Below are positions 2,015-64,000 of a DNA stretch of 64,000 nt, piece by piece; positions within the stretch are counted from its first letter, which is position 1; each line of letters begins with the position of its first letter. A program made the position numbers and the translations under genes. The stretch lies in NCBI GenBank assembly GCA_021442155.1, contig CM038229.1, forward strand, positions 72,498,443-72,562,442, read 5' to 3'. The DNA comes from Cymbidium sinense (lineage: Eukaryota; Streptophyta; Magnoliopsida; Asparagales; Orchidaceae). The notes under the pieces were generated by a model. That model searched no databases. It was given only the letters and a program-made list of their open reading frames with translations, and was not told the DNA's origin.

Positions 2015-2022
2015 CATGGATT
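2015..2022. repeat. Left target-site duplication of the hAT element
   Basis: CATGGATT directly precedes the left end of the hAT element. The partner at 9543-9550 reads TGTGGATT, so 6 of 8 bases agree. Eight bases is the duplication length of hAT transposases; the two differences fit the age of the copy. Confidence 0.7.
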
Positions 2023-2205
2023 TAGGGGTGTAAATGAGCCTAGCTTGACGAGCTTGGTACTTATTTGTGTTCGTCTCGTTAAGAAATTTTTTTGTTCAAT
2101 ATCGACTCGTGTTCGTTAACAGCTCGTTAACAGTTGTTCGTGTTTGGCTCGAGAATTTGTTCGTGTTCGTTAACAGCTTGTGTTCGGCTCGAATTGGCTC
2201 ATTAA
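2023..2205. repeat. hAT left terminus with subterminal GTTCG repeats
   Basis: The terminal inverted repeat begins at 2023. It is followed by clustered copies of GTTCGT, CTCGTTAACAG and GGCTCGA between about 2065 and 2205. Clusters of short subterminal motifs are where hAT transposases bind. The right terminus carries the same vocabulary in the opposite orientation. Confidence 0.75.
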
Positions 2206-2229
2206 GAATTTATTTATTTATTTATTAAT

Positions 2230-2729
2230 ATTTTAAAAATATTAAATTTAATAAAAAAAATTTTATTACAAAAATGCAGCTTTGTAGTTATTTATAAATT
2301 GTGGAGTGTGGACTAATAATAAAAATGACCTTTTAAAAAATAAATTTTATTACAAATAAATTACATAACTCAAAATAACAATTGAATATGATTTTGCAAC
2401 ATAATTTATTAACTACAAAAATTACATTACTACAAATATGATTTAATACATTTGAATATGATTTAGTACACAAAAATTTAAAAGCTACAAATAAATTAAT
2501 AAATGAGTACAATCCAATTATACACTTATACAAAATAAAATGAAACTTTAACATCTTCCAAACTCGAAATAATCTTGATAGTCTTGGCTTGCTTATTCAC
2601 TCCCCAGAAATCATCAAGTTTATCTGCTCTTTATACTTGAATACTTCTTGCTGCTGTGCTGCATTAAATAAACAAATCTAAAAAAAATTATGTTATATAA
2701 TTATTGAATGGGCTCAATTTGAAATTTTA
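2230..2729. other. AT-rich hAT spacer
   Basis: AT-rich filler between the left terminus and the internal repeat block. It contains repeated words such as ACAAATATGATTTAGTACA (2430-2475). No gene recognised. Confidence 0.5.
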
Positions 2730-29094: not shown

Positions 29095-29678
29095 ATAAAA
29101 GGAGTATACTTCCATCTTCACTCTATGCGAGATAAAATGAATATATAAATATACTTTCTTCTTTTTATGCATTTTTTACACTTCGTAGATCTGTAAATAT
29201 TTTATTGAGGGTGATCAGGTATGACATTGAAGAGATGTGTACTATCTCAAAAGATAGAAATCACCGCCCTACAATGGACCTAATCACCTTAACAAGGACT
29301 CCTAAGGACCATGGGTCTGTATGTGTACCAAATATTCTTCCCCTACTTTACATGGAAAAGTAAAGTAAGGTTTATTTTAAACCAAGTTCGTTAGGTTTCC
29401 TACAGGGGCAAGCCCCCATAGTTATTTACATCCTAAGGAATGAGATCCCTTAGGAATACTCTCGATTAAGATAAATGATTATTGTCTCCAAAGATTTCAA
29501 TAGGTAGGACTATCAATCGATTAATTTATTTTGGAAGATCAAATGGGAATGATCATAGAGAGAGAGTTATTATCGAAGCCAAAGGAAGATAAGTGGGAGA
29601 TGCTCAAGATGCTAGGAAACCTAGCGATTATCTCAAACCATCCTATGGTTGGGCTTTACATTTTTGAAATCGAATTAT
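29095..29678 (-). repeat. Minus-strand LTR fragment, subfamily A (left part)
   Basis: Reverse complement matches about 43620-44080 of the giant element's LTR well: CTACTTTACATGGAAAAGTAAAG, the ACATCCTAAGGAATG run and CTAGGAAACCTAGCGA are shared. It is clearly closer to that LTR than to the subfamily B LTR at 20570-21070. It is split from its continuation (36209-36426) by the chromovirus. Confidence 0.75.
29674..29678. repeat. Chromovirus target duplication, left
   Basis: ATTAT, repeated exactly at 36209-36213 immediately after the right LTR. A perfect 5-bp duplication, the usual length for LTR elements. Confidence 0.85.
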
Positions 29679-36426: not shown

Positions 36427-36759
36427 TGTTGACCTCATTTTTAGAATGAGTTCTCAACCCCTCCATCTTAAACATAGGATTTCTCTTAGAATTTAATAGT
36501 TCCTTAGTCTTAAGACACATCTAATGATTAGGTGGACACTCAAACTTATCTCTGGAGACTTAGAAGATTTAGCCATAGGAATATGTTATGCCTTAGGGGT
36601 GTTAGGAAAATTTTCTCAATTTCTCACCCTTAGCTTAGATCATTCATCACCTTCGTTCCTTCAAGTCAAACTCAAAATCAATATTAATTGATTTTCTACA
36701 AACTCAAATCAATTCCATGATTGAAATCCATGATTGAAATCTATGATTGAAACCCATGA

Positions 36760-37270
36760 TCAAAATCCATCAAAAATTCCTAAGTCCAAATTTTGCCTAA
36801 GTCCTTAATCTTCTCTTATGAACTTAACCAAAACTTGATCAAACCATTGCAAACTAATGAGATTTTCTCAACTCTTTTATATTCTCATTTATATTCAGAT
36901 ATATAAATGAAATGTAAATATAAATCAATCAAATCAAACCCTCAAATTAAAATCTCCTTAAGTCATTAATTTTCCATTAATGAACTTAGCCTAAATGTTG
37001 ATCAAACCATATCAAAGTCATGGGATTTTCTCATAACCCATTTATATTCTCATTTATATTCACATATATAAATGAAATATAAATATAAATCAATTAAACC
37101 AAATCCAAAAATTCAAAACCCTACTCCAAATTTTCCTAAGTCCCTTAAATCCTTCTTAATGAACTTAGCCTAAATCATGATCAAACCACTTCAAATCCTT
37201 GAAATTTTCTCATGATCCATTTATATTCTCATTTATATTCATATATAAAAATGAAATATAAATTCAAACA
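36760..37270 (+). repeat. U3 tandem units with a 10-bp hairpin
   Basis: Three units spaced 165 and 179 bases, each with CCTAAGTC...CTTAATGAACTTAGCC..., GATCAAACCA and then TCATTTATAT / ATATAAATGA arms with a 6-nt loop (36885-36910 and 37050-37075 perfect; 37229 damaged). The right LTR has the same block (58836 and 59015). Confidence 0.75.
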
Positions 37271-37609
37271 ATCAAAACCTATTCCGAAAATCAAACTCAA
37301 AGCAACTCAAAATCCAATCTAAGCCTTTCAAGTCAAAATCTTGAACTTAGCTAAAACAATTTCAAATCAAGTCAAACCATTGATTTTCTATCATGGTTCA
37401 ATCAACCCTACAATAATGAGCTTATATATAAATCCAAACTTTAAACAAACAATCAAAACCTAGTTCAAAAATCAAACCCAAAACCTTTTCATATTCTTCC
37501 TTTGAATATGAAATTGTCAAATGGAACAAAACCCATTTGACTTCAAACCACTTGTAAATGGATTTATATTTCAATTATAAGTCCATACACAAGATAAATT
37601 GACTTCAAA

Positions 37610-38405
37610 TCAAGGTTTGACCAAACCATTTGACCCACTTAGGCTCACTTGACCCAAAGTGGCCTAAAGTATCCTTATGAGCCAAATTTTGATCCTAACC
37701 AAATTAGATTGAATCAAACTCATATTTTCCTCTCATCATGATCAACAATCATCATGGGATGATCAATCAATAAAGTTGGGTTAAACCAAGTCAAATCTAA
37801 GGGTTGACCAAGTCAACACTTAACCCAAAATAAAACCTAACATAACCAAATTCCACCATAGGCCAAATTGATTGAAACCATTGATCTAAGTTCACTCATG
37901 ACCAATGTTTGAACTTGACCAAGAAGCATAAACCTAGCCCATTTGAAACTTCTTGACCAAGTTGACCCATTTTGACCTAAAAGTCAAAATGTGTCAAAAC
38001 TTGATCTAAGCCAAATTGATTGAAACCAATGGGTCAAGTCCATTCCAAATCACTTGTGGAACTTGACCAAAGCCTCAATTGACCAACCACTACTTAGACT
38101 CAACATGACCTAAAAGGGTCATATTGAGCCAAAATTAAACTTAACCAAAATTGATTGGAAACAAAGATACCAATCCACTCCATATGACTAACCTAGCCTA
38201 AACCTACCCTTGACCTACCTCAAATAGGTAAATGAAGTCATATGAGCCAAATCCAAAACTATACCAAATTGAATCAAACCAAATCCACCAAAAAATTTCA
38301 AACGGTCATATGAACTGACCCAACCCTTGGTTTAACCCAATTTGACCTATTGGTCAACTTGACCCAAGTTGACCCATTTTGACCAAAATTGGTCAACATG
38401 AGCCA
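37610..38405 (+). promoter_or_regulatory. Cluster of TTGACC (W-box-like) motifs in the LTR
   Basis: At least fifteen TTGACC plus GGTCAA copies in about 800 bases, for example in ACTTGACCAAGTTGACCC-like runs at 37950-37990 and 38340-38400. TTGAC(C/T) is the core of the W-box bound by WRKY transcription factors. The right LTR repeats the cluster at 59400-60030, and the subfamily B LTR has a smaller TTGAC cluster at 25560-25690. The promoter role is inferred. Confidence 0.5.
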
Positions 38406-38858
38406 AACCCTATCAAATGAATTCCAAATCTCATGAAACTTGGACAAACCTAGTTTCTCCACATACCCAACATATCCAAAGTGGAAAAATAATAAAATGA
38501 CCATCCTTCACCTAGGCCATAGAACAAATTTTGGCTTAATCCATGGGTAATTTGGTCATACCCTCTTCACATTCACTTGAGGTTTTCCTAAAAGCTCAAA
38601 GGGATCTAGGGGAGAGTGGTGCACCCAAACCTATGGGTTTAGGTTAGCCCATTTGGTCCATAGACCAAACCCAACCCTTTGGGTCAAATTTGAAAATTCA
38701 AACTCCCTTTCAAACTCAAATTAAGGCACATGGGAGGTTGGAAATCCAAACTTGGTTCAAACCGACCATGTGCACACTCCTAACTGATCACACAACCCGT
38801 TGCCTAAGCTTAATTGGATCAAAATGGCAAGTGCATTGCCGGTCATCCGATCCTTCAA

Positions 38859-38877
38859 GGGGGAGATATACTCCCCC
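38859..38877. repeat. GGGGGAG/CTCCCCC inverted repeat around ATATA
   Basis: GGGGGAG-ATATA-CTCCCCC, a perfect 7-bp inverted repeat. In the right LTR (60488-60505) it is reduced to GGGATAG-ATATA-CTCCCC. ATATACTCCCC may be a core-promoter element; a CT-rich stretch (38890-38910) follows. Confidence 0.5.
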
Positions 38878-39447
38878 TAATTCAATTCAATTCTTACTTC
38901 TCCTCTGTCGATTGAAGCTAAGGAACTCAGATAAATCACCAAAGAGTGCTCCCAAGCTTCTTAAAAAGGATTTGAGAAATCCATTTCTCAATTTTCAAAT
39001 AGTGAAAATAGGGGAGCGCAATCCATTCTCCAACTTCTTCCACACTATAATCCACTGCTCAAAGCACTCAGACCAAATCTTCACCCAAGTTCTTTAAGCT
39101 CTAAAGGCAAGGAGGAGTAATTGATCAAAGTGCAAGCTACCCAAGGAGGATTTGGTCCATACATCATCCACTCAATCCCTAAACTTGAAAGGCTTTTCTA
39201 ACCGCATCTAAGCTTCTCCAAGGGAATCGCACTCATCAAGGTATGGGATTTTTTGACCGTTAAACTCAATGTGGTGTGGAGCTTTGTGAAAAAAATTATT
39301 ACCTCATGGATTTTTGACAGTTGGATTTGCCGCTCTTTAGCTTTAGATGGTGTGGGTTGAGTTTGATTTAAATCCATGCTAGATCGAGCTTGGATCTTCT
39401 CCTTGATCATGGACGATCTTTATTGATCAAGGGAAAGAACTTAGGAG

Positions 39448-39490
39448 ATCTCAGCCATCCATCTGTGCATTTTAGATGGACGGCTGAGAT
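39448..39490. repeat. 17-nt hairpin arms in the left LTR
   Basis: ATCTCAGCCATCCATCT (39448-39464) and AGATGGACGGCTGAGAT (39474-39490) pair at 16 of 17 positions with a 9-nt loop. The right LTR copy (about 61027-61070) is more decayed. Confidence 0.75.
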
Positions 39491-42424
39491 AATTCTACAC
39501 ATTTAGATTTCCTTTTATCCGTTTTAAACCACGGGGAGATCCCTGGCCATCCGATCTTTGATTGGACGACAGGGCACGTGCACTGCTAGTCGCCACCTGA
39601 GATTTGACAACTTAAGTAATCCCCTCACAGCATGACGCATGTAAAGTGCACTGACTCTCGCCGCCACACGTCGCGCCATGAGCCAGGGATAAGTTAGGGT
39701 TAATTAAAATGCCTTAATTAATTTTTATTAATTCAGGAATCTTCCAAAATTCATAACTCCTTCTAAAAAATTCAAAAAATTATGAAATAAAATTCTATGG
39801 AAAGATAATACAACCTAGAATATTTTAAAATTAATTTCATTTTGAGTTTATTTTCTGAATTTGGGTTTTATTGGAAAATTTATTTTGCTAATTACTTTTT
39901 TAAGCTCTAATCTCAAATTTCTTGGGTATGATTTAGGGGATGACTTCTGCCTCTCCTAATTTGCTTGGGATTTGTTGAAGACTTGATTAGAAGAATTGCA
40001 TATGGTTTCCTTAATTACCCTCCTTATGTAATTAAACATAATTAGGGTATGATTAGTGATTTTAACCTATAATTAGGGTTGATTAAGGTTAGATATAGTA
40101 AGTAGGAGGTTTATGGAATAATTTTGTGGCATTTCCCCTAAGATATTTCCTAAACCCCCACTTCTCTCCTTAATCTCCTCTTAATTAAGGGTTAATTAAT
40201 TAATTATCCCCTTAATTAATTTCTAAAAATTCTAAAAAGTTCCAGAACTTAATTAATCTACTTTGGGTAAATACTTAGGTATTTAATAGCCTAAGTTCAA
40301 TTAAGGAAATCAAAACCCAATTTATATGTGTGAAAGGGTGTTTTGAAATTACTTAAGTTAAACCACTTAGCTTAATTAACTTTTAATTGTGAGCCAAATT
40401 GTATTAGGCCTCTTTCTTATAAAGTGCATTGCAAATTTAAATTCCTTGTGGGTTTTATGTCATCTAATTGGCTCATGATTATTTGGTTAACCCTTCTAAG
40501 GTGGTGTAGGTAAGAGTTAATTAAGTTACTTAATTCATACCTTAACCTAATTAACACATAAAAATGGATCTAATTATCTAAAAATTAAACAAAAATATCA
40601 AACACATGTAGGAATGGGTTAGGAACAACAAAGTCATCTCACATTTACAAAATTAACTCAAACTTCAAACTAAACAAAATTCACTTTGAATTCACTTTGA
40701 TTTATTTTAAACATTCTTATTCCATAAGTATGTCTTTAGGATTTAAGTAAAGTGAACTTGTTTATATGCTTTCATTACTTTGAATCTTTCCCAAACATGT
40801 TAAGTTGTATTCCATGTGATTTCATGCATTCATAATTTTAAAATTAAAAATTTAAAATGAAATTATTTACTTTATGTCAAATTTGCATGTGTTGGCTAAA
40901 GTAGAAATATGAGTGGCTATTATCACTACTAAATTCAAATTATTTTCAAAACATATAAATTAAATACCAAATCTGAAAGTATGCTACTTATAATTTAATT
41001 ATGAGTTTGCATGAGATATAACATAAAGGTATGGTGAGCATAGGTTTCCTTTCTTTCTTATGTTGGTATAGTTTTGAATAGGAGTTGGTAAGATGTTGGG
41101 TTCATTTGAAAAGAACCCAACACTTACTTAATTCCATACCCTATTCATCACTATGCTATCACTTAAGAAGGGTTATCTATACTTGCATACATAAATTGCA
41201 TAAATAAATGAATCCATTAAACAACTTTGCATTCTCCTTTCTATTTCATTTCTTTTATACACATGTTTGTATTTAAGGAAAGTGGTATATTAGTCTGACA
41301 ACCCCAGATTGCAGACTTAAGTCTCTAGGTTTTGTACCTTACACTATTGGTTAACAATAGCACTATACTCACTTATGCCTTTCTTACTTTCACGTGTGTA
41401 TGTGAAAATTTAGATATGGAAAACCCTTTCAACTTAAGAAAAATCATGGATATTAAACTTCTAAATTTCCTTAAATGGAATACTTAACATGCATCATAAA
41501 GTGTGTTAAATACTCTCATTTCCATGTATAGATATGCTTAGGGCCCATCCATAAGTATGTTATTTATGTTGGGAAAGAAATGAAGTAATGTGTGCTATGT
41601 GAATTTTGATTCATTTTATTTAATCTTAAAAATGCCTTTCTTTTTTGAATAGGTTTGTTTAGAGTTCATCTAAACTTATGATTAATTAAAATATTTAATC
41701 AAAACATTCACCTAAAGGAAATTAGAATGTGAATCTACTTTAGAAATTAGTTAGGTTAGGGAAGAAAAGAGAAGTTCTCTTCTCTTTCCCTCTCTTCATA
41801 ACCTAGTAATTAATTGTAGGGTCCATTTAAAAATAAGTTAAAACATAAAATAAAATGAACCCAAACTAATTAAACAACTTAAATGAAATCCTCCTCTAAG
41901 TTGATCATGTTCTTTACACCTAGAAAATTTAAACCTAAAGCCATAGCTAAGCACACCACACAAAGCCTTCAAAGCACACACATTAGCTTAAGTCACCACT
42001 TTAGTTAGGGGTGCATGGTTTGATGTTTATTTTATTTTGTGATATATGTTTTAGACTGGATGTTAGGATGTATGCTCAAGAATGAATGGTAGGACTCTTA
42101 GTCTAACTATTCTTCTTTTATATGTTGCTATCATAAATAAAAATATAAATGCTTTTGCTTGCAGGTGCTTTATACCCTTAAGCATAATCCATATTCTAGG
42201 TGGACTTAGTCACCCGTGTGTGAGGTGATATGTCTAATATACATGCTTGAGATTTGTGTGGTTTGTTTTAGCTAACCTTTATTTTATAGGTGTTAGTTAG
42301 ATTTCCAATTTTTTCCTTTCATGTAAATTTGTGTAATTAGAATTTTGGAATAATTATTATGGGGATTAGGATGAGCATTGGTCATAAGATCCTATCTTAT
42401 GCATCATGTGAATCCTTGGAGCAT

Positions 42425-42530
42425 CTACCTTCCAACCATCCAAAAGAAGGAACCAAAAGAAGAAACAAGAAGATAAAAGAAGAAAGAAGAAAAGAAGAAA
42501 GAAGAAAAGAAGAAAGAAGAATAAAGCTTG
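42425..42530 (+). repeat. Purine-only (AAGAAGAAAG)n tract
   Basis: About 100 bases of almost pure A and G, built of AAGAAGAAAGAAGAAAAG. The Lys/Glu/Arg-rich open frame across it (42359-42562) is a low-complexity by-product. It lies in the distal part of the LTR; the right LTR is cut just before it. Confidence 0.8.
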
Positions 42531-44168
42531 AAGACCCCCATAACAATGAGTTCCTTTGTTAATTGTAATTTAATTCATTTGTAATCCATGTTGTATAAGG
42601 GTAGAGCTCGGCTACCCACATTTGATATTTTTAGGTTTGTACGGTGGTGCCCGACCACAATGACCTATTATTCTTTTTATGATTAGCTTTATAAATTGAT
42701 TAATGATTTGTTTAGTTTTTGCATTAAGGGGCATACTTTTCCTAGTTTATTCCTTGCTTTATGTATGTCCTGAATGTGGATTAGGCTCTTTAGGGAAAAA
42801 TAAATCTTTTACCCAACTTAACAACTCAAATTAAAATTAAACAACTCATAACCTCACCTAAAGCTTAGGTTTAAAATCAAGATAAAAGAATTAGCAACCT
42901 CTTAGCTGGATGAGAATTTCTTTAATAATATCATGCACAAATGCATATTATTTCACTCTTGATTAGAGGGATTCCACCTTTTTCAGAGAAACTTGGCTTG
43001 ACTTTTGAGAGCTATGGTGGAAACTCATCTCCTCCCTTCTCGATGATTTTGGCCAATAACGTTATTTCTCATGCATTTGTCATATGAATCCTATTAGCTT
43101 GAGTTAAAATAATTGTCCAAAATGAAAATCAAAATAAAATTTGAATTGCATTAGATTTAGGTCATTTGAAGCATATCCCTTTACATGATCTATACTCTTT
43201 AAGGAGTGAGCTTAAGGACTTAGTCTCTTTCTAAATAAGCAACCCAACTATCTTCCATAAGCATAAAGACTTGCCTAAATGTATTTAAAATCATAGGAGG
43301 AGTTAGTTGGCCACCCCGCGGTAAGTCCAAGTCTCGGTGGTTTGTCCTTTTATGAGGCAAACCAATTATCCATTTTTGCCTTAGATTTAGGTTGTGATTC
43401 CGGCCCTCATCGAAGCTCCCTAGATTTAGGTTCTGAGGTTTCTTCTCCCCTTTGTGGGTCCTAAGTTTAATTCCTCACCTCTTAGGTATTTCCTTAATCT
43501 TATATTAAGGAATTATAAGTCCAAAAATTCTAATGAAAAATTTAACTCAAATAAACTAAATCAATTTCAAAAATGAAAAGCCTAATTATAGGATAGTTTG
43601 AGATTGCTCGCTAGGTTTCCTAGCGTTATGGGCATCTCCTACTTATCTTCCATTTTGGCTTCGATAATAACTCCCTCTTTTGACCAATCCCATTTGATCT
43701 TCAAAAATAAACCAGTTGATTGATGGTCTTTCTTATTGAAGTCTTCAAAGATAATGATAATTTACCTTAATCAAGAGTTTTCCTAAGGAATCCCCATTCC
43801 TTAGGATGTAATTAACTATGGGGACTTGCCCCTCTAGGGAACTTAATGAACCCGATTTAAAATAAATCTTGCTTTACTTTTCCATGTAAAGTAGGGGAAG
43901 AATCTCTGGTACATATGCAAACCCATCATCTTTAGGAGTCCTTATTGAGGTGATTAGATCCATTAAAGGGTAGTGACTTCTATAGCTCAAGATAGTACAC
44001 TATTTCTTTGATGATGTACTCGATCACCTAAATAAGTAAATCTGTGGATCTGTGTGGTGTCTTAACAAGATGAATTTCTATAAGGGTCTTATCCTCTTTC
44101 ATTTCTCACCAATAGATTTGATAGGCGACTCCGATCCCCTCATAGAAATTTTTCTCCATAGATTTTTT

Positions 44169-44186
44169 TGGCAACTCCGCTGGGGA
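44169..44186 (+). other. Primer-binding site of the giant element
   Basis: TGGCAACTCCGCTGGGGA. It matches the TGGCGACTCCGCTGGGGA site used by Ogre-type elements (Arg-tRNA) except for one base. A diverged second copy of the core (GGCGACTCCGATCCCC) lies 35 bp upstream in the LTR. Confidence 0.8.
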
Positions 44187-44735
44187 TGGTTCCTTTCTCC
44201 ATCTTTGATAAATGATCATTGTCTATGAGTATCGATAATGGGTTTGTACTTTAGTATGAATCCAATACTATCCTTCTTTCCGTTGACACTTAGCTCATTT
44301 CATTCTTGAGTTGAGTTGGCCAACATCTTTAGGTTTTAGGACTGCATTCCTTGTTTGTCTTAAAACTCCCGTTGGGTCCTCCAATGGGTAAAATAAAAAG
44401 ATCTAAATAAAAATAGAAAATATATTTTTTTAAGACTTCCTCCTAATCATTTTCATGATAGGAAAATGTTCATCCTAAAATAATAAATCTTCCATAAAGA
44501 ACTTTGCTTTTTCAAAAGCAACTTTTCAAAAATGCACTTAATAAAATATTTTCCACAAAATTTTGTCACCTTCATTTAACAATTCCCATAATTGTTACAT
44601 GTAGGGATTTTCAAAAATAAAACTTACAAAATTTTCCAAATTCACTTTGATGTAGATTTCATTTTCAAAATAAAAAAGAACAATCATCTTTTCAAGAAAT
44701 CACAATCATAATCATAAAGTTTTCAAAAAGCACAC
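44187..44735 (+). other. First part of the leader of the giant element
   Basis: AT-rich and non-coding. From about 44540 onwards A-rich segments like those between the hairpin units appear, so it grades into the array. Confidence 0.6.
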
Positions 44736-46600
44736 ATAAAATTTTCTATTCAATACACTCACACTTATTGAATGGAAAGTTCATTTGCAAACAAAATTAA
44801 AATTTCCAAAAAAAAGCACACATGAACACCTTCATTTATTATACTCAAATTTATTAAATGAAGATTTCATTGCAAACTAAAAAAAATAATAATAAATATG
44901 TTTTAGGAAATCCCACTTAAACATATCCCAGATATCTTTTAAGTTAGAATTTCTATTTTTCAAAAAGCAATAATCACACACAAAACAAAAATTTCATATT
45001 TCAAAAATAAGATTGATCTCCATTCTACATACTTAAATTTGTTGAATGGAACTCCACTTTTAAAAATATTAAAACTTCAACAATCATATTTCAAAAAAAT
45101 TTCAAACATACATTTGGAACTTCATTTAGCATAATCAAATTTGCTAAGTGAAGTTTCCAAATCTAAAATAAAAATCTACAATCATATTTTAAAATTTTTC
45201 AAACATACATTTGGAACTTCATTTAGCATAATCAAATTTACTAAGTGAAGTTTCCAAATCCAAAATCAAAATCAACAATCATATTTCAAAATCTTCAAAC
45301 ACATTTGGTACTTTATTTAGCATAATCAAATTTGCTAAGTGTTGTTTCCAAATCCAAAATCAAAATCTACAAACATATTTCAAAAATTTTCAAACACAAT
45401 TGAAACCTCATTTACCATACCCAAATTTGCTAAGTGAAGTTTCCAAATCCAAAATCAAAATCAATAATCATATTTCAAAAAATTTTTAAACAGCATTTGA
45501 AACATCATTTAACATACCCAAATTTGTTAAGTAAAGTTTCCAAATCCAAAATCAAAATTTTCAAACAACATTTGGAACTTCATTTAACATACCCAAATTT
45601 GTTAAGTAAAGTTTCCAAATTCAAAATCCAAAAAATTTTCAAACACATATTTGGAACTTCATTTAACATACTCAAATTTGCTAAGTAAAGTTTCCAAATC
45701 CAAAATCAAACATTTTTTCAAAACATATTTTTTGAACTTCACCTAGCATACTCAAATTTGCTAAGTGAAGTTTCCAAAGTCAAAACCAAAATTTTCAAAC
45801 ACCTTTTGGAACTTCTTCCCTTAGCATACCAAATTTGCTAAGGAGAAGTTTCCATTTTTTAAAACCAAGACAAATCAAAAATTTTGAACACACCATTTTG
45901 GAATTTCATTTAGCATACTCAAATTTGCTAAGTGATATTTTCATTTTTTCCAAAACCAAGTGGGACGTCATCTTTAGCATACCAAATTTGCTAAAGTTAA
46001 ATCTCCACTTTCAAAACACATCAAAACAAAACAAAGCACCTTGGGATTCCCTTAGCATACCAAATTTGCTAAGGATCCTACCCTTTTCAAAAATCAAAAC
46101 ATTCCAAACAAATGAAACACTTTGGATTTTCTTAGCATACTTAAATTTGCTAAGGATCTTATTTTTAAAAATAAAACAAAATACACTTGAATTCTTCTCT
46201 AAGCATACCTAAATTTGCTAAGTAAGAATTCCAAAATTTTCAAAATAAAAAAAAAATTCACAAAAAGAAACAATCACTTTCTCAAACACTTCACTTAACA
46301 TACCTAAATTTGCTCAGTAAGTGTAATTCCAAAATAATCAAACAAAAATAAAATCATTTGACCCTTACTTTAACATACCTAAATTTGTTAAAGGAAAGGG
46401 TCCTCAAAATAAAAAAAATTCAAATTTGAAATAAATAATGAACCTATGGAAGCATCCTATCAAAAATTTTGAATCCACTTTTCAACATACCTAAATTTGT
46501 TGAAGTTAGATTCATATTCAAATTCCTCTTCAATCAATCTTCTCAAATCCATTTGAACCCCACTTAACACTTCCAAGTTGTTGGATGTGGGTTCAAATTT
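44736..46600 (+). repeat. Hairpin-repeat array in the 5' leader
   Basis: About 20 units at 63-112 base spacing. Each contains a variant of TTAGCATACCAAATTTGCTAA, which is self-complementary around a conserved loop, with arms that extend outwards. Between units lie A-rich spacers (TTTCCAAATCCAAAATCAAA). Arms differ from unit to unit but stay complementary: for example 44748-44755/44766-44773, 45116-45131/45142-45158, 45808-45826/45836-45853, 46189-46196/46224-46231, 46360-46375/46386-46402, 46471-46487/46498-46513 and 46553-46560/46589-46596. No coding capacity is evident. Position between primer-binding site and first ORF suggests a role in packaging, dimerisation or translation of the RNA. 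Confidence 0.9.
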
Positions 46601-46725
46601 TCAAATTCAAAAATTAAAAAAAAAAAATCTATGGAGATAGAAATCAAATACAAGTTCATTTCTCATTGCAGATTCTTTACAGTCAATATAGTATAGTTCA
46701 GTTTCAGTCTACTATAGTTTTGGAA

Positions 46726-47361
46726 ATGGCCGATTTTCAGAAGTTTGTCTTCACCTTCCCCCACGGTATAGATCTAGCTTTAGATCAGGTTGACTTCCCT
46801 TGTCTAGATCATACACACCTGATTCATTTTGGCTAGGGATTTGAAGGGGCCAGGATTAATTGTGAGGGCATTCCCCTCACCATAGGAGACCAGGTGACCG
46901 CGGTATCATCGATACTTACCTATTATTTCGATGTCTCCTCACTAAAGAGAAAGGCGGGCGTCACCACAAACTTCAATTGAACACCGGTAGTACTAGCTCT
47001 AGTTGCAATTCATCCCAGAGTTGCTCATGTTGCCCCAATATAGGCTAGTACCCTACCATCTATACCTTCCAAGGGTAAGGCTCCCCTAGTCTCAGGGCTT
47101 GCCTCCCCTACATTTGAGTATGGGTGTAGCTCACACTCCTCTTGTTCTACCCGTACCCAGCATAGGAACAAGAACCGTATGATCAAATGGTTCCACACTA
47201 GAATAGCTAGGGAGTTAGAGGCATTAGCTCAATCAGCCATGGATGAGTCTCCCATCATCACTTCACCCGGTTATAAAACCGCCATTTCATCTCTATTAGA
47301 TGAGAGGATGCCAAGGATCCATTCATCACCTCTCTGGTGCACTCAGCGCCAGCTAGAGTAG
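46726..47361 (+). pseudogene. ORF1-like frame upstream of gag
   Basis: A single frame of 211 codons from ATG 46726 (MADFQKFVFTFPHGIDLALD...) to TAG 47361, interrupted only by three stops (after LIHFG, NFN and VAPI) and with no frameshift. I know no domain in it. The N-terminal part is hydrophobic and acidic; the C-terminal part is Ser/Arg-rich (CSTRTQHRNKNRMIKWFHTR) and ends in a possible helix RIARELEALAQSAMDE. Ogre elements carry an extra ORF of unknown function at this place. Confidence 0.6.
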
Positions 47362-52060: not shown

Positions 52061-53187
52061 AGTAGTGTCTAATAGACCCTCTATTAAGCAAGCTCCTAGA
52101 TGCATGCGATTATAAATTGAACAATAGGTCATTTATGAAGTCAAGAAACTGATCGATGCTGGTTTCATCAAGGAAAAAAATATCCTACCTCGTTAGCTAG
52201 TGTCATCCCAGTTAAGAAGAAGAATGACCAAATTTGCATATGCGTCGATTTTAGAGACTTAAACAAGGCATGTCCTAAGGATGTGTTTCCTCTTCCTATA
52301 CCTGAATTAATGGTGGACATTGCATCATATCATATAGTCTTCTCTTTCATGGATGGGTCATCTGGCTATAACCAAATCAAGATGTCTCTTGAAGATGAAA
52401 GAAACATTACTTTTTGAACCCCGATCAGAATCTTCTATTATAGGGTCATGCCTTTCGGCCTTAAAAATGCTGGTGCTACATACCAACGGGTCATGACTTT
52501 GATCTTCAATGAACTCATTCATCATCAGGTTGAGTGCTATGATGATGATTTAGTAGTCAAGAGTTTAGAAAAAGAAGACCATCTCTTTTTTGAACGGTTA
52601 AGAAAATATAACCTCAAAATGAATCCCTTGAAGTGTGCATTCAGAGTCGCTTCAGTGAAATTCCTTGGGTTTGTTGTCCGACATCAGGGAATAAAAATTG
52701 ATCCTAAAAATATTAAATCTATCTTCAAAATACCACATCCTAAGAGTTTAACTCAACTTAGATCCTTTCAAGGATGGTTGGCGTATCTAAGATGCTTTAT
52801 CTCGAACCTATCAGAGAGATGCAAGCCATTCTCAGCACTTGTCAAAAAGGATGCCAAGTTCAAGTGGGATGATAAGTATCAACATGGTTTTGAAGATATT
52901 AAAGAGTACTTGGTGAAGCCACTAGTTCTAGCAGCTCCTATCCTGGGTTGGCCACTCATCCTTTACACTGCTGCATTGGATGACTCTCTCGATACTCTAT
53001 TGGCTCAAGCCAACGATGAAGGGAAGGAGAGCATACTCTATTACCTCAACCATCGCCTAATTCCTTCTGAAGCAAACTATCCACCTATTGAGAAGCATTT
53101 CCTAGCTTTGATCTTTGCATCTCAGAAGCTACGACATTACATGCTTTCTCATAAGGTAAACTTATTCCCTCGAATAAATCCACTGTA
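52061..53187 (+). pseudogene. Tat-type reverse transcriptase and RNase H
   Basis: RT begins in decayed form (KKLIDAGFIKE, then ASVIPVKKKNDQICICVDFR and DLNKACPKDVFPLP). It is open from 52448 to 53188: MPFGLKNAGATYQRVMTLIF, catalytic box CYDDDLVVKS (about 52533-52562; the usual YVDD reads YDDD, both Asp kept), LNPLKCAF-type and LGFVVRHQGIKIDPKNIK segments. RNase H follows from about 52950 (LILYTAALDDSLDTLLAQ; ILYYLNHRLIPSEANYPPIEK; LALIFASQKLRHYML). The enzyme copies RNA to DNA. Stops lie upstream (for example before TPIRIFYYRV) and at 53186. Confidence 0.9.
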
Positions 53188-53397: not shown

Positions 53398-53790
53398 CTG
53401 ATGGGAGATGTATTTTGATGGTGCTTCTTCTTTTCTTAAAGGTGAAGCACCACGATCAATTCTTTCAGGAAAGTCAGGGGTAAGAATAGTTCTTCTAACT
53501 CCAAATCGTGATGTGATGAGATTCTAATACTATCTTTCCAACCCCTGCACCAATAATAAAGTTGAGTATGAGGCTTTGATTGCCGGTCTGGAGTTAGCCA
53601 TCACTATCAGTGTCAAGAGCATCAATATCTTTGGAGATTCTCAAGGTCATCAAGCGATTCGGGTCCTACCAGTCCTCAAGCAAGCTTCATTATTACTACA
53701 CGTATACCATGAAGTTGCTGGCCCAGATTCCCGAAGTCACCATCTACAAGGTTCCACGAGCAGAGAACGCAGCAACAGATACCTTGGCCA
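53398..53790 (+). pseudogene. Second (archaeal-type) RNase H
   Basis: WEMYFDGASSFLKGEAP, then SGVRIVLLTPNRDVMRF, YYLSNPCTNNKVEYEALIAG, LELAITISVKSINIFGDSQ and the tail VTIYKVPRAENAATDTLAKL. The catalytic set is visible: Asp in YFDGA, Glu in EYEALIAG, Asp in FGDSQ and Asp in TDTLAKL. An extra RNase H of this type between the first RNase H and integrase is diagnostic of Tat-lineage elements. One stop (in MRF*YYL) and a frameshift near 53640 break it. Confidence 0.88.
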
Positions 53791-54300
53791 AACTTGCCAA
53801 AGAATTGGCATGTCCAGAAGATGAGTCCATTTCAATAAGGGTCCAAAATAGACAGGTCCTATCCCTTATTGATGCTGAACTCATCGAGAGACTTTCTCAT
53901 GAAGGGGAGGTTACCGTTGCCCAAATGGACAAGGAGCTGGATTGGAGGCAACCGTTCATAGATTACTTGAACATCGGTAAACTACCTCGAGAAAAGTCAC
54001 AAGCCCATCAGGTGAAATAAAGAGCACTCTCCTATGCTCTTGTTGATGGCACCTTGTACCGACGGTCCTTTGACCTAATGTGATTACGTTGTTTAGACAA
54101 ACATGAAGCTCATGGCATTATAACTGAGGTACATTCAGATCTATGTGGAGGTCATCAATCTAGTCCAAAGATGAAGACGAAGATCAAAAGACTTGGATAC
54201 TACTGGACTTCTATGATCATAGATTGCATGGTCATAGCTAGGAGATGCTTTCAGTGTCAGGTGCAGGGTGTGGTCCTCCACCAACCACCCAACATCCTAC
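53701..54300 (+). repeat. Tandem duplication in pol, copy 1
   Basis: A 600-bp segment covering the tail of the second RNase H, the linker and the integrase zinc-binding region (ALSYALVDGTLYRRSFDL; EAHGIITEVHSDLCGGHQ; CFQCQVQGV). It is repeated at 54323-54918, offset about 620. This copy keeps the open frame (53610-54020) and the CxxC, so it is the better of the two. Confidence 0.9.
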
Positions 54301-54322
54301 CAGGTCCTCATGCACAAGCGTT

Positions 54323-54918
54323 GTACATACCATGAAGTTACTTGTGGTCGAAGTCACCATCTACAAGGTTCCTTGAGCAGAGAACATAGTAGCAGATACC
54401 TTGGCTAAACTTGCTAAAGAATTGGCATGTCCAGAAGATGAGTCCATTTTAATAAGGGTCCAAAATAGATAGGTCCTGTCCCTTATTGATGCTAAACTCA
54501 TCGAGAGACTTTCTGTTGAAGGGGAGGTTTCCATTGCCTAAATGGACAAGGAGCTAGATTGGAGGCAACCATTCATAGATTACTTGAACATCATTAAACT
54601 ACCTCAAGAAAAGTCAGAAGCCCATCAAGTGAAATAAAAGAGCTCTCTCCTATGCTCTTATTTATGGCACCCTGTATCGACGATCCTTTGACCTAATGTG
54701 ATTACATTGTTGAGACAAACATGAAGCTCATGGCATTATAACTAAGGTACATTCAGATCTATGTGGAGCTCATCAATCCAATCCGAAGATGAGGATGAAG
54801 ATCAAAGGACTTGAATACTACTGGACTTCTATGATCACAGATTGCATGGACATAGCTAGGAGATGCCATCGATGTTAGGTGTATGATGTGGTCCTCCACC
54901 AACCACCCAACATTCTAC
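54323..54918 (+). repeat. Tandem duplication in pol, copy 2
   Basis: Second copy, about 90% similar by eye, with extra stops (KVP*AEN; QNR*VLS) and a damaged CxxC (CHRC followed by a stop). Its right end flows into the integrase core, so pol as it stands reads through the linker and zinc finger twice. Confidence 0.9.
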
Positions 54919-55797
54919 ACCCTACATTGGCTTCATGGCCATTTGAGTGTTGGGGTACCGACATTGTAGGTCCGATCGATCCTCCTTCTTCCATGGGATC
55001 TCGATTCATCTTAGCTGCTACCAACTACTTTTCCAAGTGGGTGGAAGCCATCCCACTTAGAGAGGTCACAACTCACCATGTGCTTCAGTTTTTTAGGAAC
55101 CATATCGTATATAAGTTTAGGGTGCCTCAATGAATTATATCCGATAATGGTACTACATTCAAAAGCATGAAGATCAACAGTTTTGCCAGAAGTCATGATA
55201 TAGATTGGAGATACTCCACCATATACTACCCCATAGCTAATGGTTTAGCAGAAGCAGTCAACAAAAATCTCATCCAAATACTAAAGAAGATGGTTGATGA
55301 CATCAAACGATAGTGGAACGAGCAGTTGGTTGAAGCCTTATGGGCCTACCACACCACATACTGAACTCCAACTCAGTCTACCCCATTTTCCTTAGTGTAT
55401 GGGTCTGAAGCCATTCTTCCTTTAGAAGTTCAACTCCTATCACTAAGGATAGCATTGGGTAACAAGATCACTATAGAACAGAATGTAAAGTTATGGTTAG
55501 AAGAGCTTGAAGGTTTGGAGGAAAGTTGCCTATGGGAGAGCCAGAACCTCGAGTTTTACAAAGCCAAAATGATTCAAGCTCATAACAAGGTGTAGCCCTT
55601 TAGTAGGAGAACTTGTGTTAGTCAGGAGACTAATTGTTGACCATCGAAAGATAAGAGGCAAGTTTGAACCCACTTGGGAAGGCCCCTATGTCATAGAGAA
55701 GGCCTACCAAGGAGGATCTTATCAACTTATTAATTATAAAGTGGAACACCCAATGCTTCCAATTAATGGGCTCTACCTAAAGAAATATTACTCATGA
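54919..55797 (+). pseudogene. Tat-type integrase core and C-terminus
   Basis: PFECWGTDIVGPIDPPSSMG carries the first catalytic Asp, IISDNGTTFKSMK the second (after a TGA at 55132), and YYPIANGLAEAVNKNLIQIL the Glu, so the D,D-35-E set is complete. Then ALWAYHTTY, TPTQSTPFSLVYGSEAILPL and EVQLLSLRIALG. The C-terminal module is LVRRLIVDHRKIRGKFEPTW, EGPYVIEKAYQGGSYQLI and LYLKKYYS with TGA at 55797. In-frame stops at 55132, about 55311 and 55362, and a frameshift near 55595, inactivate it. Confidence 0.9.
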
Positions 55798-58197: not shown

Positions 58198-61100
58198 TAT
58201 TGACCTCATTTTTAGAATGAGTTCTTAACCCCTCCATCTTAGATATAGGATTTCTCTTAGACTTTAATAGTTCCTTAGTCTTAAGACACATCTAGTTATT
58301 AGGTGGACAATCAAACCTAACTATAAAGACTTAGAAGGTTTAGCCATAGGAATAAGTCATGCCTTAGGAGTGTTAGGAAAATTTCCTCAATTTCCCAACC
58401 TTAGCTTAGACCATTCCTCACCTTCATTCCTTCAAGTCAAACTCCAAATCAATCTTAATTTATTTTTTCCAAACTCAAATAAATTCTATGACTAAAATCC
58501 ATGATTGAAACCTATGATCAAAATCCATCAAAAATTCCTAAGTCCAAATTTTGCCTAAATCCTTAATCTTCCCATAAGGACTTAACCAAAACTTGATCAA
58601 ACCATTGCAAACTCATGAGATTTTCTCAAAACTCTTTTATATTCATATATATAAATTAAATATAAATATAAATCAATCAAATTAAACCCTAAAATTAAAT
58701 TCTCAAATTAAATTCTCAAATTAAATTCTTAAATTAAATCTCATTAAGTCATTAATTTTCCATTAATGAACTTAGCCTAAATCTTGATCAAACCATATAA
58801 AACTCATGGGATTTTCCTATAACCCATTTATATTCTCATTTATATTCACATATATAAATGGAACATAAATATAAATCAATCAAACCAAATTCAAAAATTC
58901 AAAACCCTACTCCAAATTTTCCTACATCCCTTAAATCCTTCTTAATGGACTTAGCCTAAATCATGATCGAACCACTTCAAATCCTTGAAATTTTCTCATG
59001 ATCCATTTATATTTTCATTTATATTCACATATATAAATGAAATATAAATTCAAACAATCAAAACCTATTCCAAAAATCAAACTCAAATTAACTCAAAATC
59101 CAATCTAAGCCTTTCAAGTCAAAATCTTGAACTTAGCCAAAACAATTTCAAATCACGTAAAACCCTTGATTTTCTCTCATGGTTCAATAAACCCTACAAT
59201 CATGAGCTCATATATAAATTCAAACTTCAATCAAACAATCAAAACCTAGTTCAAAAATCAGACCCAAAACCTTTTCATATTCTTCCTTTGAACATGAAAT
59301 TGTCAAATGGATCAAAACCCATTGACTTCAAAACACTTATAAATGGGTTTATATTTTAATCATAAGTCCATACACAAGATCAATCAACTTCAAATCAAGC
59401 TTTGACCAAGCCATTTGACCCACTTAGGCTCACTTGACCCAAAGTGAGCTAAAGTACCATTATGAGCCAAATTTTGATCCTAATCAAATTGGATTGATTC
59501 AAACTCATATTTGCCTCTCACCACGATCAACAATCATCATGGGATGATCAATCAATCAAATTGGGCCAAACCAAGTCAAACCTAAGGGTTGACCAAGTCA
59601 ACACTTAACCCAAAATGAAACCTAATATATTCCCATAGGCCAAATTGATTGAAACAATTGATCTAAGTTCACTCATGACCTATGTTTGAACTTGACCAAG
59701 CTAACATTTGAGCCTAACCTAGCCCAATTGGCCACTTGACCCAAGTTGACCCATTTTGGAAACAAAGACACCAATCCACTCCATATGACTAACCTAACCT
59801 AAACCTACCCTTGACCTACCTCAAATAGGTCAAATGGGTCAAATAGGTCAACTTGACCCATTTGACCTAAATGAAGTCATATGAGCCAAATCCAAAACTA
59901 TACCAAATTGAATCAAACCAAAGCCACCAAAAAATTTCAAATGGTACATATGAACTTGACCCAACCCTTGGTTCAACACAATTTTACCTATTGGTCAACT
60001 TGACCCAAGTTGACCCATTTTGACCTAAATTGGTCAACATGAGCCAAACCCTATCAAATGAATTCCAAATCTCATGAAACTTGGAAAAACCTAGTTTCTC
60101 CACATACCCAACATAAAAAAAACAAAATGACCATCCTACCCCTAGGCCATAGAAAATATTTTAGCTTAATCCATGGGTAATTTGGTCAAAATATATTCAA
60201 ATTCACTTGAGGCTTTCCTAAAAGCTCAAGGGGTCCTAGGGGAGAGTGGTGAACCTAACCTAATGGGTTTGGGTCAGCTCATTTGGTCCCTAGACCAAAC
60301 TCAACCCTATGGGTTAAAATTGAAAATTCAAACTCCCTTTGAAACTCAAATTAAGGCACATGGGAGGTTGGCAATCCAAACTTGGCTCAAACCAACCATG
60401 TGCACACTCCTAACTGATCAAACAACTCATAGCCTAAGCTCAATTGGATCAAAATGGTAAGTGCATTACCAGCTGTCCGATCCTTCAAGGGATAGATATA
60501 CTCCCCTAATTCCCCTCTGATTGATTGCTAAGGAACCCGTGAGCAACCATCGAGAGTGCTCCAAGAGGAGGATTTTAGTGGAAAATAGGGAGCTCAATCC
60601 ATTCTCCACACCAATCTATAAACACTCTGTGACCAAGTTGAGCTCACATGTTCTTCCTAAAGGAGGGACCATTTTGGATCAATGTTGCAAGCTACCAAGT
60701 AGGAGTTGGTCCATACATCAATCCACTCAACCTCAAGTGCTCATACTCTCAGCAAGGCTTCGTCTCAACCAAACGAAGCTTCTCCAAGGGAATCGAGCAT
60801 CGGTGATCACCTCCGGCAAGGTATGGGATTTTTCTACCATTAAACTCAATGTGGTGTGGAGCTTTGTGAAAGAAATTTTCACCCCATCAATATTTGATCG
60901 TTGGATTTGCCGCTCTTTAGCTTTAGATGGTGTGGGTTGAGTTTAATTTAAATCCATGATAGATCGAGCTTGGATGTTCCCCTTGATCATGGACAGTCTC
61001 TGTTGATCAAGGGGAAGAACTTGGGAGATCTCAACCATCCATCCGCACATTTTAGATGGATGACTGAGATAATTTCTCATGTTTAGATTTCCTTTTATCC

Positions 61101-64000
61101 ATTTTAAACCACGGGGAGATCCCTGGCCATCCGATCTTTGATCAAATGATAGGGATCAAATCACGTGTGTTGCCAGCCGCCACCTGGGATTTGATAACTT
61201 AAGTAATCCCCTCACAGCGTGATGCATATAAAGCACGCAGACTACCGTCACCATGCATCGTACCGTGAGCCAGGGATTAGTTAGAGTTAATTAAAATGCC
61301 TTAATTAATTTCTATTAATTCAGGAATCTTCCAAAATTCATAACTCCTTCTAGAAAATCCAAAAAATTATGAAATAAAATTCTATGGAAAGATAATTTAA
61401 CCTAAAATATTTTAAAATTAATTTCAATGGGTTTGAATTATGATTTTCTCTGAATTTGGGTTTTATTGGAAAGTTTTTTTATTAATTACTTTTTAATTAA
61501 GCCTCTAATTAATCTCAAATTTCTTGGGTATGATTTAGGGGATGATGTCTACCTCCCATAGTTTTCTTGGGATTTATTGAAGGCTTGATTAGAAGAATTG
61601 CATATGATTTCCATAAATGTAATTAAGCATAATTAAGGTATGAGTAGTGATTTTAACCTATGATTAGGGTTGATTAAGGTCAGATTCAGTAAGTAGGTGG
61701 TTTATGAAATAATTTTGAGGCATTTCCTTTAAGCTATTCCCTAAACCCCCTCTTCTCTCCTTAATCTCCTCTTAATTAAAGGTTAATTCATTAATTATCC
61801 CCTTAATTAATTTCTAAAAATTTTAAAAAGTTCCAAAACTTAATTAATCTACTTTGGATAAATGCTTAGGTGTTTAATAGCCTAAGTTCAATTAAGGAAA
61901 TCAAAACCCAATTCATATGTGTGAAAGGGTGTTTTGAAATTACTTAAGCTAAACCTCTTAGCTTAATTAACTTTTAATTATGAGCCAAATTGCATTAGGC
62001 CTCTTTCTTATTAGATGAATAGCAAATTTCAATTCCTTGTGGGTTTTATGTCATCTCATTGGCTCATAATTATTTGGTTAAATCTTCTAAGGTGGTGTAG
62101 GTAAGGGTTAATTAAGTTACTTAATTCATACCTTAACCTAATTAACACATAAAGATGGATCTAAATATCTAAAAATTAAACATAAATATCAAACACATGT
62201 GGGAATGGGTTAGAAATAGTAAACTCATCTAACCTTTTCAAAATTAAATCAAACTTCAAACTAAACAAAAATCACTTTGAATTCACTTTGATTTATTTTA
62301 AACTTTCTTATTCCATAAGTATGTCTTTAGGATTTAAGTAAAGTGAGCTTGTTTACATGCTTTCATTACTTTGAATCTTTTCCCAACATGTTAAGTTGTA
62401 TGCCATGTGATTTTCATGCATTCATAATTTTAAAATTCAAATTTTAAAATGAAATTGTTTACTTTATGTCAAATTTACATGTGTTGGCTATAGTAGAAAT
62501 ATGAGTGGCTATTTTCACTACTAAATCCAAATTATTTTAAAAACATATAAATCAAATACCAAATCTAAAAGTATGCTACTTATACTTTAATTATGAGTTT
62601 GCATGTGATAGAATATAAAGGTATGCTTAGCATAGGTTTCCTTTCTTTCTTATGTTGGTATAGTTTTGAATAGGAGTTGGTAAGATGTAGGGTTCATTTG
62701 AAAGAACCCAACACTTAATTAATTCTATACCCTATTCCATATGCTATCACTTAAGAAGGGTTACCTATACTTGCATACATAAATTGCATAAATGAAATGA
62801 ATCCATTAAATAACTTTTGCATTCTCTTTTTCTATTTCATTTCTTTCATACACATGTTTGTATTTAAGAAAAGTGGTATATTAGTACGGACAACCCTGAG
62901 GTTGCGAGGCTTTAAGTAGCCCTAAGTAGGTCTTGCACCTTACACCTCTGGTTAATAATGGCGCTGTACTGACTTATGAAAATTTAGATAAGGAAAACCC
63001 TTTCTACTTAAGAAAAATCATGCATATTCAACTTCTAAATTTTCTTAAATGGATTACTTAGCATGCATCATAAAGTGTGTTGAATACTCTCATTTGCATG
63101 CATTGATATGCTTAGGGCCCATCCATATGCATGTTATATATGCTGGGAAAAAGAAGAAGTAATGTGTGTTATGTGAATTTTGATTCATTTTATTTAATCT
63201 TAAAAATGCCTTTCTTTTTTAATAGGTTTGTTTAGAGTTCATCTAAACTTAGGATTAATTAAAAAATTTAATCAAAACATTCACCTAAATGAAATTAAAA
63301 AGTGAATCTACTTTAAAAATTGCTTAGGTTAGGGAAGGAAGGAGAAGTTCTCTTCTCTTTCCCTCTCTTCAGAACCTAGTAATTAATTGTAAGGTCCACT
63401 TAAACCAAATCAAAACATGAAATAAAATCATACCAAAATAATTAAACAACTTAAATGAAACCATCCTCTAAGTTAAACATATTCTTCACACTTAGAAAAT
63501 TTAAACCTAAAGCCATCGCTAAGCTCACCACACATCCTTCAAAGCACCCACATTAGCTTAAGTCACCACTTCTAGCCTTAGGTTAAGTTGGTGCATGGTT
63601 TGATGTTTATTTTGTTTTGTGATATATGTTTAAGACTTGATGTTAAGGTGTATGCTTGTAGAATTAATGGTAAGACATTCTTAGCCTAACTATTCTTTTC
63701 TATAGGGGATTATGCTTAAGGGCCACTATCATAAATAAAAATATAAATGCTTTTGCTTGCAGGTGCTTTATACCCCTAAGAATAATCCATAGGCCAGGTG
63801 GACTTAGTCACCCATGTGTGAGGTGATAAGTCTAATATACATGCTTGGGATTTATGTGATTTATTTTAGCTAACCTTTATTTCATAGGTGTTAGTTAGAT
63901 TTCAACTTTTTCCTTTCATGTAAATTTGTGCAATTAGGATTTTAAAATAATTGTTATGGGGATTAGGATGCGCATTGGTCGTAAGATCCTATCTTATGCA
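58198..64000 (+). repeat. Right (3') LTR of the giant element, cut by the window edge
   Basis: Starts TATTGACCTCATTTTTAG; the terminal TG of the left LTR reads TA here. Collinear with 36427-42401 and carrying the same U3 hairpin units (58836, 59015), W-box cluster (59400-60030), GC-rich patch (61130-61260) and distal part. About 1.75 kb of it should lie beyond 64000. Confidence 0.85.
59400..60030 (+). promoter_or_regulatory. TTGACC (W-box-like) cluster, right LTR
   Basis: Same cluster as at 37610-38405. It includes a perfect 15-bp inverted repeat, GGTCAAATGGGTCAA (59828-59842) and TTGACCCATTTGACC (59853-59867). Confidence 0.5.

Follow-up and report, generated by a model that had tools for sequence, protein, structure and literature searches.

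A tandem array of hairpins with a shared loop and diverging but complementary arms in the leader of a Tat/Ogre-like retrotransposon of Cymbidium sinense

The leader of a retrotransposon in the orchid Cymbidium sinense raises the question of why some twenty hairpins should share one loop while their arms differ from unit to unit and still pair. The element, Tat/Ogre-like by its domains and long terminal repeats (LTRs), lies in a stretch of 64,000 nucleotides (nt) of contig CM038229.1 (positions 72,498,443 to 72,562,442), hereafter the window, from whose first letter positions are counted. The original prediction, made from the letters of the window, described about 20 hairpins with a shared loop and named several arm pairs. 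Local folding now places 21 hairpins of this shared-core kind on the plus strand of 44736-46600, and 19 of them carry one loop type, TA[A/C][C/T](N)AAATT; the first and last have variant loops, at 44756 (CACTCACACT) and at 46570 (degenerate). The arm pairs include ATTCAATA/TATTGAAT from 44748, GGAACTTCA/TGAAGTTTCC from 45116, GAATTCTT/AAGAATTC from 46189, GACCCTT/AAGGGTC from 46360, and TTGAACCC/GGGTTCAA near 46551, and the AACA/TGCT state that had been pointed out as intermediate is that of unit 10, with its loop at 45669. Folded structures without the core, such as that at 44904-44955, are left out of the count.

The local-fold z score of 45201-45800 on the plus strand was -13.2, the lowest among the 318 strand-windows of the 64 kb (mean -1.7, standard deviation [sd] 2.4), and neighbouring array windows gave values near -8.9; windows in the LTRs ranked second and third (-10.8 and -9.2). 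The stems comprise 8-21 Watson-Crick pairs, the strongest named hairpin reaching -23.5 kcal/mol. An ungapped hairpin scan at one threshold listed just six hairpins in the array, because many stems carry bulges or mismatches. Rfam covariance models gave no match to 44000-47000 at E values up to 1. A search of the rest of the element for a loop complement as a pairing partner gave a single plus-strand match, at 50548, which is taken as chance; in the whole window, five such matches lay outside the array, compared to 4.1 expected.

Were all units simply descended from a single palindrome, the 3′ arm of any unit would serve a given 5′ arm equally well as partner. However, the mean duplex energy over the 21 units was -15.3 kcal/mol with the own partner and -10.0 kcal/mol with permuted partners, and none of 20,000 permutations was as low, for whole, outer and inner arms alike, bearing out the claim that the arms differ and yet pair. 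The own partner was the very best in just 6 of the 21 rows and 9 of the 21 columns of the unit-by-unit swap, because units 4-11 resemble each other. The original prediction had made covariation, judged after allowing for the phylogeny of units and against a shuffled control, decisive for its reading. Kinship was allowed for crudely, by keeping 13 sequence-distinct units, and the swap held among them (0 of 20,000 for whole arms and 1 of 20,000 for outer arms). Against shuffling, the outcome was divided. The covariation score of the nine inner stem pairs was 0.378, compared to 0.214 (sd 0.029) in 500 shuffles, none of which was as high, and at most 0.13 when partners were slid; the numbers of cells paired and of cells changed on both sides also exceeded those of all 500 shuffles. 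Two other measures were unremarkable, namely the number of inner-stem pairs changed on both sides (5, reached by 50 of 500 shuffles) and that of further pair types (9, reached by 475 of 500). Between-unit differences in 15 of the 21 units rose from 0.13 in loops, a figure lowered by the omission of both variant-loop units, through 0.25-0.32 in inner arms to 0.58-0.59 in outer arms, with random 10-mers of the array differing by 0.68.

The array was used as a query against the 3.53-Gb genome assembly, and 40 places including the window were scored, the 39 others being fetched; in a first look the candidate places numbered 5639 with the leader and 127,748 with the reverse transcriptase (RT), figures that do not stand for copy numbers. 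All 40 places hold arrays because the array itself was the query. The longer matches were 78-87% identical, neighbouring cores were mostly 75-84 or 95-99 nt apart, and a loose loop pattern matched 11-29 times per copy, partly outside the array. The 3′ half, units 12-21, was alignable in 36 of the 40 copies, four without most of that half being omitted. In the aligned copies the column majority was Watson-Crick in 166 of 176 pairs, which had been selected for good pairing, and slid partners gave 23-37% Watson-Crick cells. Several mismatch sites of the window are paired in most copies, so part of the window's imperfections is decay of this copy. In the copy-by-copy arm swap of these units, 33 of the 36 copies scored 0 of 5,000 with whole arms, and 32 scored no more than 5 of 5,000 with outer arms. 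For counts between copies, locus L023 and parts of L014 were out of register in the alignment, and both were dropped, leaving 34 copies. A stronger covariation signal between copies (39 double changes compared to 21 expected) was rejected, as 12 of the changes, all in L023, came from a mostly non-orthologous alignment of units.

Whether other copies carry the array had been named as a further test. Eight plus-strand places were picked by matches to the window's RT, six without and two with internal stop codons, and 4.5-9 kb upstream of each was fetched. The array was present in the six without stop codons (L062-L067), and it was not seen in the stretches fetched for the other two, L068 and L069, which may be rearranged or lack it. 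L068 has at 1000-3000, some 6-8 kb upstream of its related RT, an A-rich (about 50%) and G-poor (3-6%) stretch with no excess folding, which may be some other sequence or a hairpin-free leader. The subfamilies show the same loop on other arms: the window repeats GGAACTTCATTTAGCA/TGCTAAGTGAAGTTTCC, L062 and L064 repeat GACTTTCACTTAACA/TGTTAAGTGAGAGTT, and in L067 the repeated arms are variants such as GGATCTTTCATTTAGCA/TGCTAAGTGAAGATCC. The fold z scores of the divergent L064 and L067 were -20.9 and -15.6. Across 87 units pooled from seven loci, the outer-arm swap gave 0 of 3,000 (z -10.1), and taken separately it was strong in the window (0 of 5,000), L063 (2) and L065 (3). The 59 distinct inner rows of these units had 72 double-change cells, compared to 28.4 (sd 6.3, highest 50) in 1,000 shuffles; units were retained only if at least six of eight inner positions paired, which biases inner-stem counts upward and leaves outer arms unaffected. 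In a more distant lineage, found with protein P0055, L054 has a primer-binding site (PBS)-like site at 2865 with no hairpin-rich stretch after it, and L055 has no hairpin-rich stretch within the 9 kb fetched; no PBS-like site was seen in L055, and its leader may therefore lie outside the stretch. In this small sample, the array thus appears to belong to the family of its carrier and to subfamilies, not to every related element. Loop-pattern matches in IMG/VR (two contigs) and in GTDB genomes (three contigs), one match each, were taken as chance, and no RT relative was confirmed in IMG/VR.

Base composition is the clearest sense-strand signal of the window array. The plus strand of the leader contains A, C, G and T at 0.40, 0.18, 0.09 and 0.33 (GC skew -0.35), and in the array G makes up 15.7% of the arms, 2.9% of the spacers linking the hairpins and 0.5% of the loops, compared to 17.1%, 18.4% and 21.4% for C. 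In the local fold, 94% of the plus-strand Gs are paired, compared to 74% in 20 shuffles, and the arrays of L062-L067 also have less G (7-11%) than C (16-20%). In the 34 copies, variable letters of units 12-21 were fewest in loops, intermediate in arms and most frequent in spacers, both at A/T sites (0.024, 0.038 and 0.064) and at C/G sites (0.061, 0.095 and 0.187), though the spacer values may be inflated by misalignment of low-complexity sequence. Single-copy mutations in spacers did not differ significantly between strands (A>G 42 per 192 sites and T>C 21 per 102, p 0.88; T>G 9 per 102 and A>C 33 per 192, p 0.11), and mutation alone therefore seems unable to hold G far below C. Shared gains of G were deficient in spacers (A>G 16 per 192 versus T>C 26 per 102, p 0.001; T>G 1 per 102 versus A>C 18 per 192, p 0.005); we do not count this deficit as proof, since flips of C sites to T or A can leave a similar pattern. 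As a separate observation, CG and CHG sites are nearly absent from the copies' arrays (CG 59 found and 973 expected, CAG 32 and 406, CTG 30 and 313, CCG 3 and 178) and from those of L062-L067 (CG 6 and 103, CHG 9 and 94), more strongly than in the LTR or coding part of the carrier, a pattern that deamination, or the avoidance of symmetric methylation, could produce.

A constant loop on stems that may change in sequence as long as they pair, with linkers left unpaired, fits an array that displays one loop to a partner, and we propose the following scenario. The array may be a cis-acting element of the retrotransposon's sense RNA, in which ten to twenty-odd hairpins, each showing the same 9-10-nt loop UA[A/C][C/U]NAAAUU, would be joined by nearly G-free single-stranded linkers. 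Since the stems would need just pairing, matching changes on both arms could have made their sequence diverge among units and among subfamilies, and the loop would have to keep its letters. The reader of the loop would most likely be a protein, either the element's own Gag, the first-ORF (open reading frame) product or a host RNA-binding protein, for which many loop copies could form a multivalent landing platform on the full-length RNA, serving packaging or ribonucleoprotein assembly ahead of reverse transcription. We infer all three of RNA rather than DNA as the target, a protein as the reader and packaging or assembly as the purpose, and hold the scenario as a whole tentatively, at a little short of an even chance. 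Retroviral nucleocapsid zinc knuckles usually grip G, and loops and linkers nearly without G therefore make a classical nucleocapsid site unlikely; a first-ORF or host protein may thus be at least as likely as Gag. The broader idea, that such arrays are a new kind of retroelement control region, recruiting a dedicated loop-binding protein to the genomic RNA through a loop repeated some 10-25 times on sequence-free stems with G-free linkers, in an array that expands and contracts between copies, is possible and more doubtful.

The near-lack of G in the loops and the possible inflation of spacer variation are not the only points that weigh against the proposed scenario. A folded sense RNA under selection should have more G-U than A-C among its imperfect pairs, but G-U was not in excess, either in the window (17:15) or among the single-change cells of the 34 copies (181 G-U and 169 A-C). 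Stem position 7 was mainly G-U (207 to 7), and position 9 was mainly A-C (108 to 18). Symmetric decay after insertion probably dominates these counts, which makes the test weak. Orthologous units covary only weakly between copies, with 22 double changes compared to 15.2 expected, and the twelve apparent double changes of L023 came with misaligned units; this comparison at the same unit had been proposed originally as a check. The paired divergence of arms would therefore be old, lying between units and subfamilies. The outer-arm swap was weaker in L066 (14 of 5,000) and L062 (31) and weak in L067 (252) and L064 (736), where units are much alike. Furthermore, the array's minus strand likewise outdoes its shuffles in folding (z -5 to -6.6), and the number of units varies among copies from 3 to 26 by a strict pattern. 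The selection on a folded RNA that had originally been read from the arms is not fully supported: the lower variation of loops and arms and the nearly G-free sense-strand spacers speak for it, but the expected G-U excess is missing and the surplus of double changes is small.

Instead of displaying a loop, the array could be a translation leader, whose nearly G-free, AUG-poor linkers would let the 40S subunit travel the 2.5 kb to the first ORF by scanning or shunting, with hairpins that tune initiation or keep other structures away. We consider this unlikely. ATG is indeed under-represented in the arrays (294 found versus 690 expected from dinucleotides, or 506 with the cores cut out), but not in their flanks (823 versus 726 downstream and 674 versus 578 upstream), and no ATG starts within 45047-46111; in addition, the tobacco mosaic virus omega leader is G-free, resembling the G-poor linkers. 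However, the window leader holds 20 ATGs, including some at both of its ends, 9-13 are left in the spans of the five copies listed, and ATG is merely the eighth most depleted of 56 triplets, behind CAG, CTG and others. Hairpins with energies down to -23.5 kcal/mol would hinder scanning, and the fixed loop would go unexplained.

Template switching by RT, copying one arm of a palindrome onto the other, could make arms match without selection. The carrier replicates via RT, its LTR has many other palindromes, unrelated in sequence, and the missing G-U excess suits such an origin. Correction of this kind would nevertheless erase the bulges, and the G-U or A-C pairs common to most copies, that persist in the stems, and it leaves unexplained why loops and arms vary less than linkers, why linkers are G-poor on one strand only and why the loop pattern occurs 536 times in sense and 4 times in inverted orientation; clustered paired changes between copies are also few once L023 is set aside. 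The original prediction had held that this alternative must be excluded; the evidence disfavours it, though for the old divergence of the arms it keeps some likelihood, and overall we regard it as improbable. An array of DNA-level sites, acting as an insulator, an enhancer or a methylation-poor promoter block, has a similarly small probability. A conserved core motif in tandem and the near-absence of CG and CHG sites from the arrays could be expected of it, but plain deamination can explain the latter, a double-strand binder has no need of complementary arms up to 20 bp out, and depletion of G on one strand is not required for a DNA site. It is very improbable that the tandem near-perfect stems are a small-RNA source or decoy, cut by Dicer-like enzymes or absorbing silencing factors, since stems of 8-21 pairs are short for Dicer-like substrates and arms of free sequence yield no fixed small RNA.

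Table 1 Hairpins of the array and features of the carrier element, in order of position in the window
Feature	Position	Strand	Details	Basis
Left LTR	36429..44168	+	ends approximate, about 7.7 kb	matches 58200-64000
PBS-like site	44169..44186	+	TGGCAACTCCGCTGGGGA	sequence
Leader	44187..46725	+	2.5 kb, A-rich, G-poor	composition
Hairpin 1	44736..44784	+	variant loop CACTCACACT	fold, arms
Hairpin 2	44830..44863	+		fold, arms
Hairpin 3	45019..45058	+		fold, arms
Hairpin 4	45112..45162	+	-23.5 kcal/mol	fold, arms
Hairpin 5	45209..45259	+		fold, arms
Hairpin 6	45303..45353	+		fold, arms
Hairpin 7	45402..45443	+		fold, arms
Hairpin 8	45497..45547	+		fold, arms
Hairpin 9	45570..45620	+		fold, arms
Hairpin 10	45649..45699	+	A-C mismatches, loop 45669 (intermediate state)	fold, arms
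Hairpin 11	45729..45778	+		fold, arms
Hairpin 12	45807..45854	+	9-nt loop	fold, pair table over 36 copies
Hairpin 13	45900..45942	+		fold, pair table over 36 copies
Hairpin 14	45958..46010	+	9-nt loop	fold, pair table over 36 copies
Hairpin 15	46042..46080	+	9-nt loop	fold, pair table over 36 copies
Hairpin 16	46129..46156	+		fold, pair table over 36 copies
Hairpin 17	46189..46231	+	GAATTCTT/AAGAATTC	fold, pair table over 36 copies
Hairpin 18	46286..46324	+		fold, pair table over 36 copies
Hairpin 19	46360..46402	+	GACCCTT/AAGGGTC	fold, pair table over 36 copies
Hairpin 20	46470..46514	+		fold, pair table over 36 copies
Hairpin 21	46551..46598	+	degenerate loop, long outer stem TTGAACCC/GGGTTCAA	fold, pair table over 36 copies
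First recognisable open frame	46726..46833	+	MADFQKF..., ATG 46726; probably the element's first ORF	open pieces
RT and RNase H piece	52418..53185	+		PF00078, PF17919, PF17917
Possible additional RNase H	53528..53821	+		PF13456, E 4e-4, 20.6 bits (cut-off 21.6)
Integrase zinc-binding piece	54084..54332	+		PF17921, E 2e-8
Right LTR	58200..64000	+	cut by window end	self-comparison

The carrier (Table 1) is classed as a decayed Tat/Ogre-like Ty3/gypsy element, in agreement with the Ogre-like carrier of the original prediction. Its pol pieces, identified by Pfam, stand in the order RT, RNase H, integrase of Ty3/gypsy elements, and the possible additional RNase H, just under its curated cut-off, sits between RNase H and integrase, as in the Tat/Ogre layout given in the available text of PMC6317226. 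The LTRs, about 7.7 kb long from the first match to the PBS, are 88-90% identical over their four longest matching pieces in self-comparison, and elements of the Ogre kind use tRNA-Arg as a primer according to the available part of PMC9289625. The array is placed, as had been claimed, between the PBS-like site at 44169 and the first recognisable ORF at 46726, judged from these sequence features. In Ogre/Tat elements gag is preceded by an extra ORF that often encodes a plant mobile domain; no such domain was found in the decayed open pieces scanned, and neither the open frame at 46726..46833 nor the piece at 54879-55130 had a Pfam match. The four best protein relatives of the carrier are from Dendrobium (64-71%), and a further protein, P0006, whose RT is 63% identical to that of the carrier, carries the name Serratia marcescens, which may reflect contamination of an assembly.

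Both LTR starts (36750-38150 and 58540-59150) contain many plus-strand hairpins of unrelated sequence and are G-poor (G 5-12%, and 5.8% at 36750-37450 in the left LTR). The windows starting at 36801 and 58801 have fold z scores of -9.2 and -10.8, and plus-strand windows starting at 36801-38401 range from -6.9 to -9.2, so that a second array is possible at the RNA's 3′ end. Elsewhere in the window, 53732-54300 and 54349-54918 form a tandem duplication of about 0.57 kb (91% identical) of the integrase part of this copy, and 26550-28057 consists of nine tandem units of 167 bp that contain GCCGACTGGGGACTT. The stretches 20668-20826, 21594-21813 and 29202-29677 match the 3′ part of the LTR in opposite orientation, and no match to the hairpin core, with up to three mismatches, was found near them.

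The packaging and dimerisation hairpins in retroviral and retrotransposon leaders, such as psi, the dimerisation initiation site (DIS) and those of plant BARE elements, are few and unlike one another. They share with the array the position between PBS and first ORF and the presence of hairpins in genomic RNA, whereas the array has about 20 hairpins with one shared loop, almost without G, on free arms. At the sequence level the array has leader hairpins with conserved pairing, as expected of a packaging or dimerisation signal, but not the exposed G expected for nucleocapsid, as its loops and linkers contain 0.5% and 2.9% G. The Drosophila gypsy 5′ untranslated region holds a Su(Hw) insulator array between PBS and first ORF, which is likewise tandem, short-sited and AT-rich, but consists of double-strand DNA sites without complementary arms. 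RNA phages and viruses have multi-site coat-protein packaging hairpins whose loops share a motif and whose stems are free in sequence, although these are scattered through coding genomes rather than set in tandem in a leader. BARE has an untranslated leader (PMC3735527, in the part available). The Ogre clade of the Tat lineage shares with the carrier very long LTRs and the PBS-like site, and perhaps also an open frame before gag and an additional RNase H ahead of integrase, but no hairpin array is mentioned in the available text of PMC6317226 or PMC9289625; the words 'hairpin', 'tandem' and 'palindrom' are absent from the main text of PMC9289625, and PMC6317226 was not searched for them. Among the literature matches listed, seen in part, there was no mention of such a hairpin-array leader, which is weak evidence of absence, as subscription journals were mostly uncovered.

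The array bears on a step that, to our knowledge, is little understood, the marking of RNA for packaging in giant plant LTR retrotransposons. An abundant family within one genome, presenting one loop on freely evolving stems, amounts to a natural mutagenesis experiment, which identifies the loop as a bait and reveals the features that matter, namely the loop letters, the pairing and the G-free linkers. Furthermore, the confinement of G to paired arms provides a compositional signature by which such RNA elements may be found in raw sequence.

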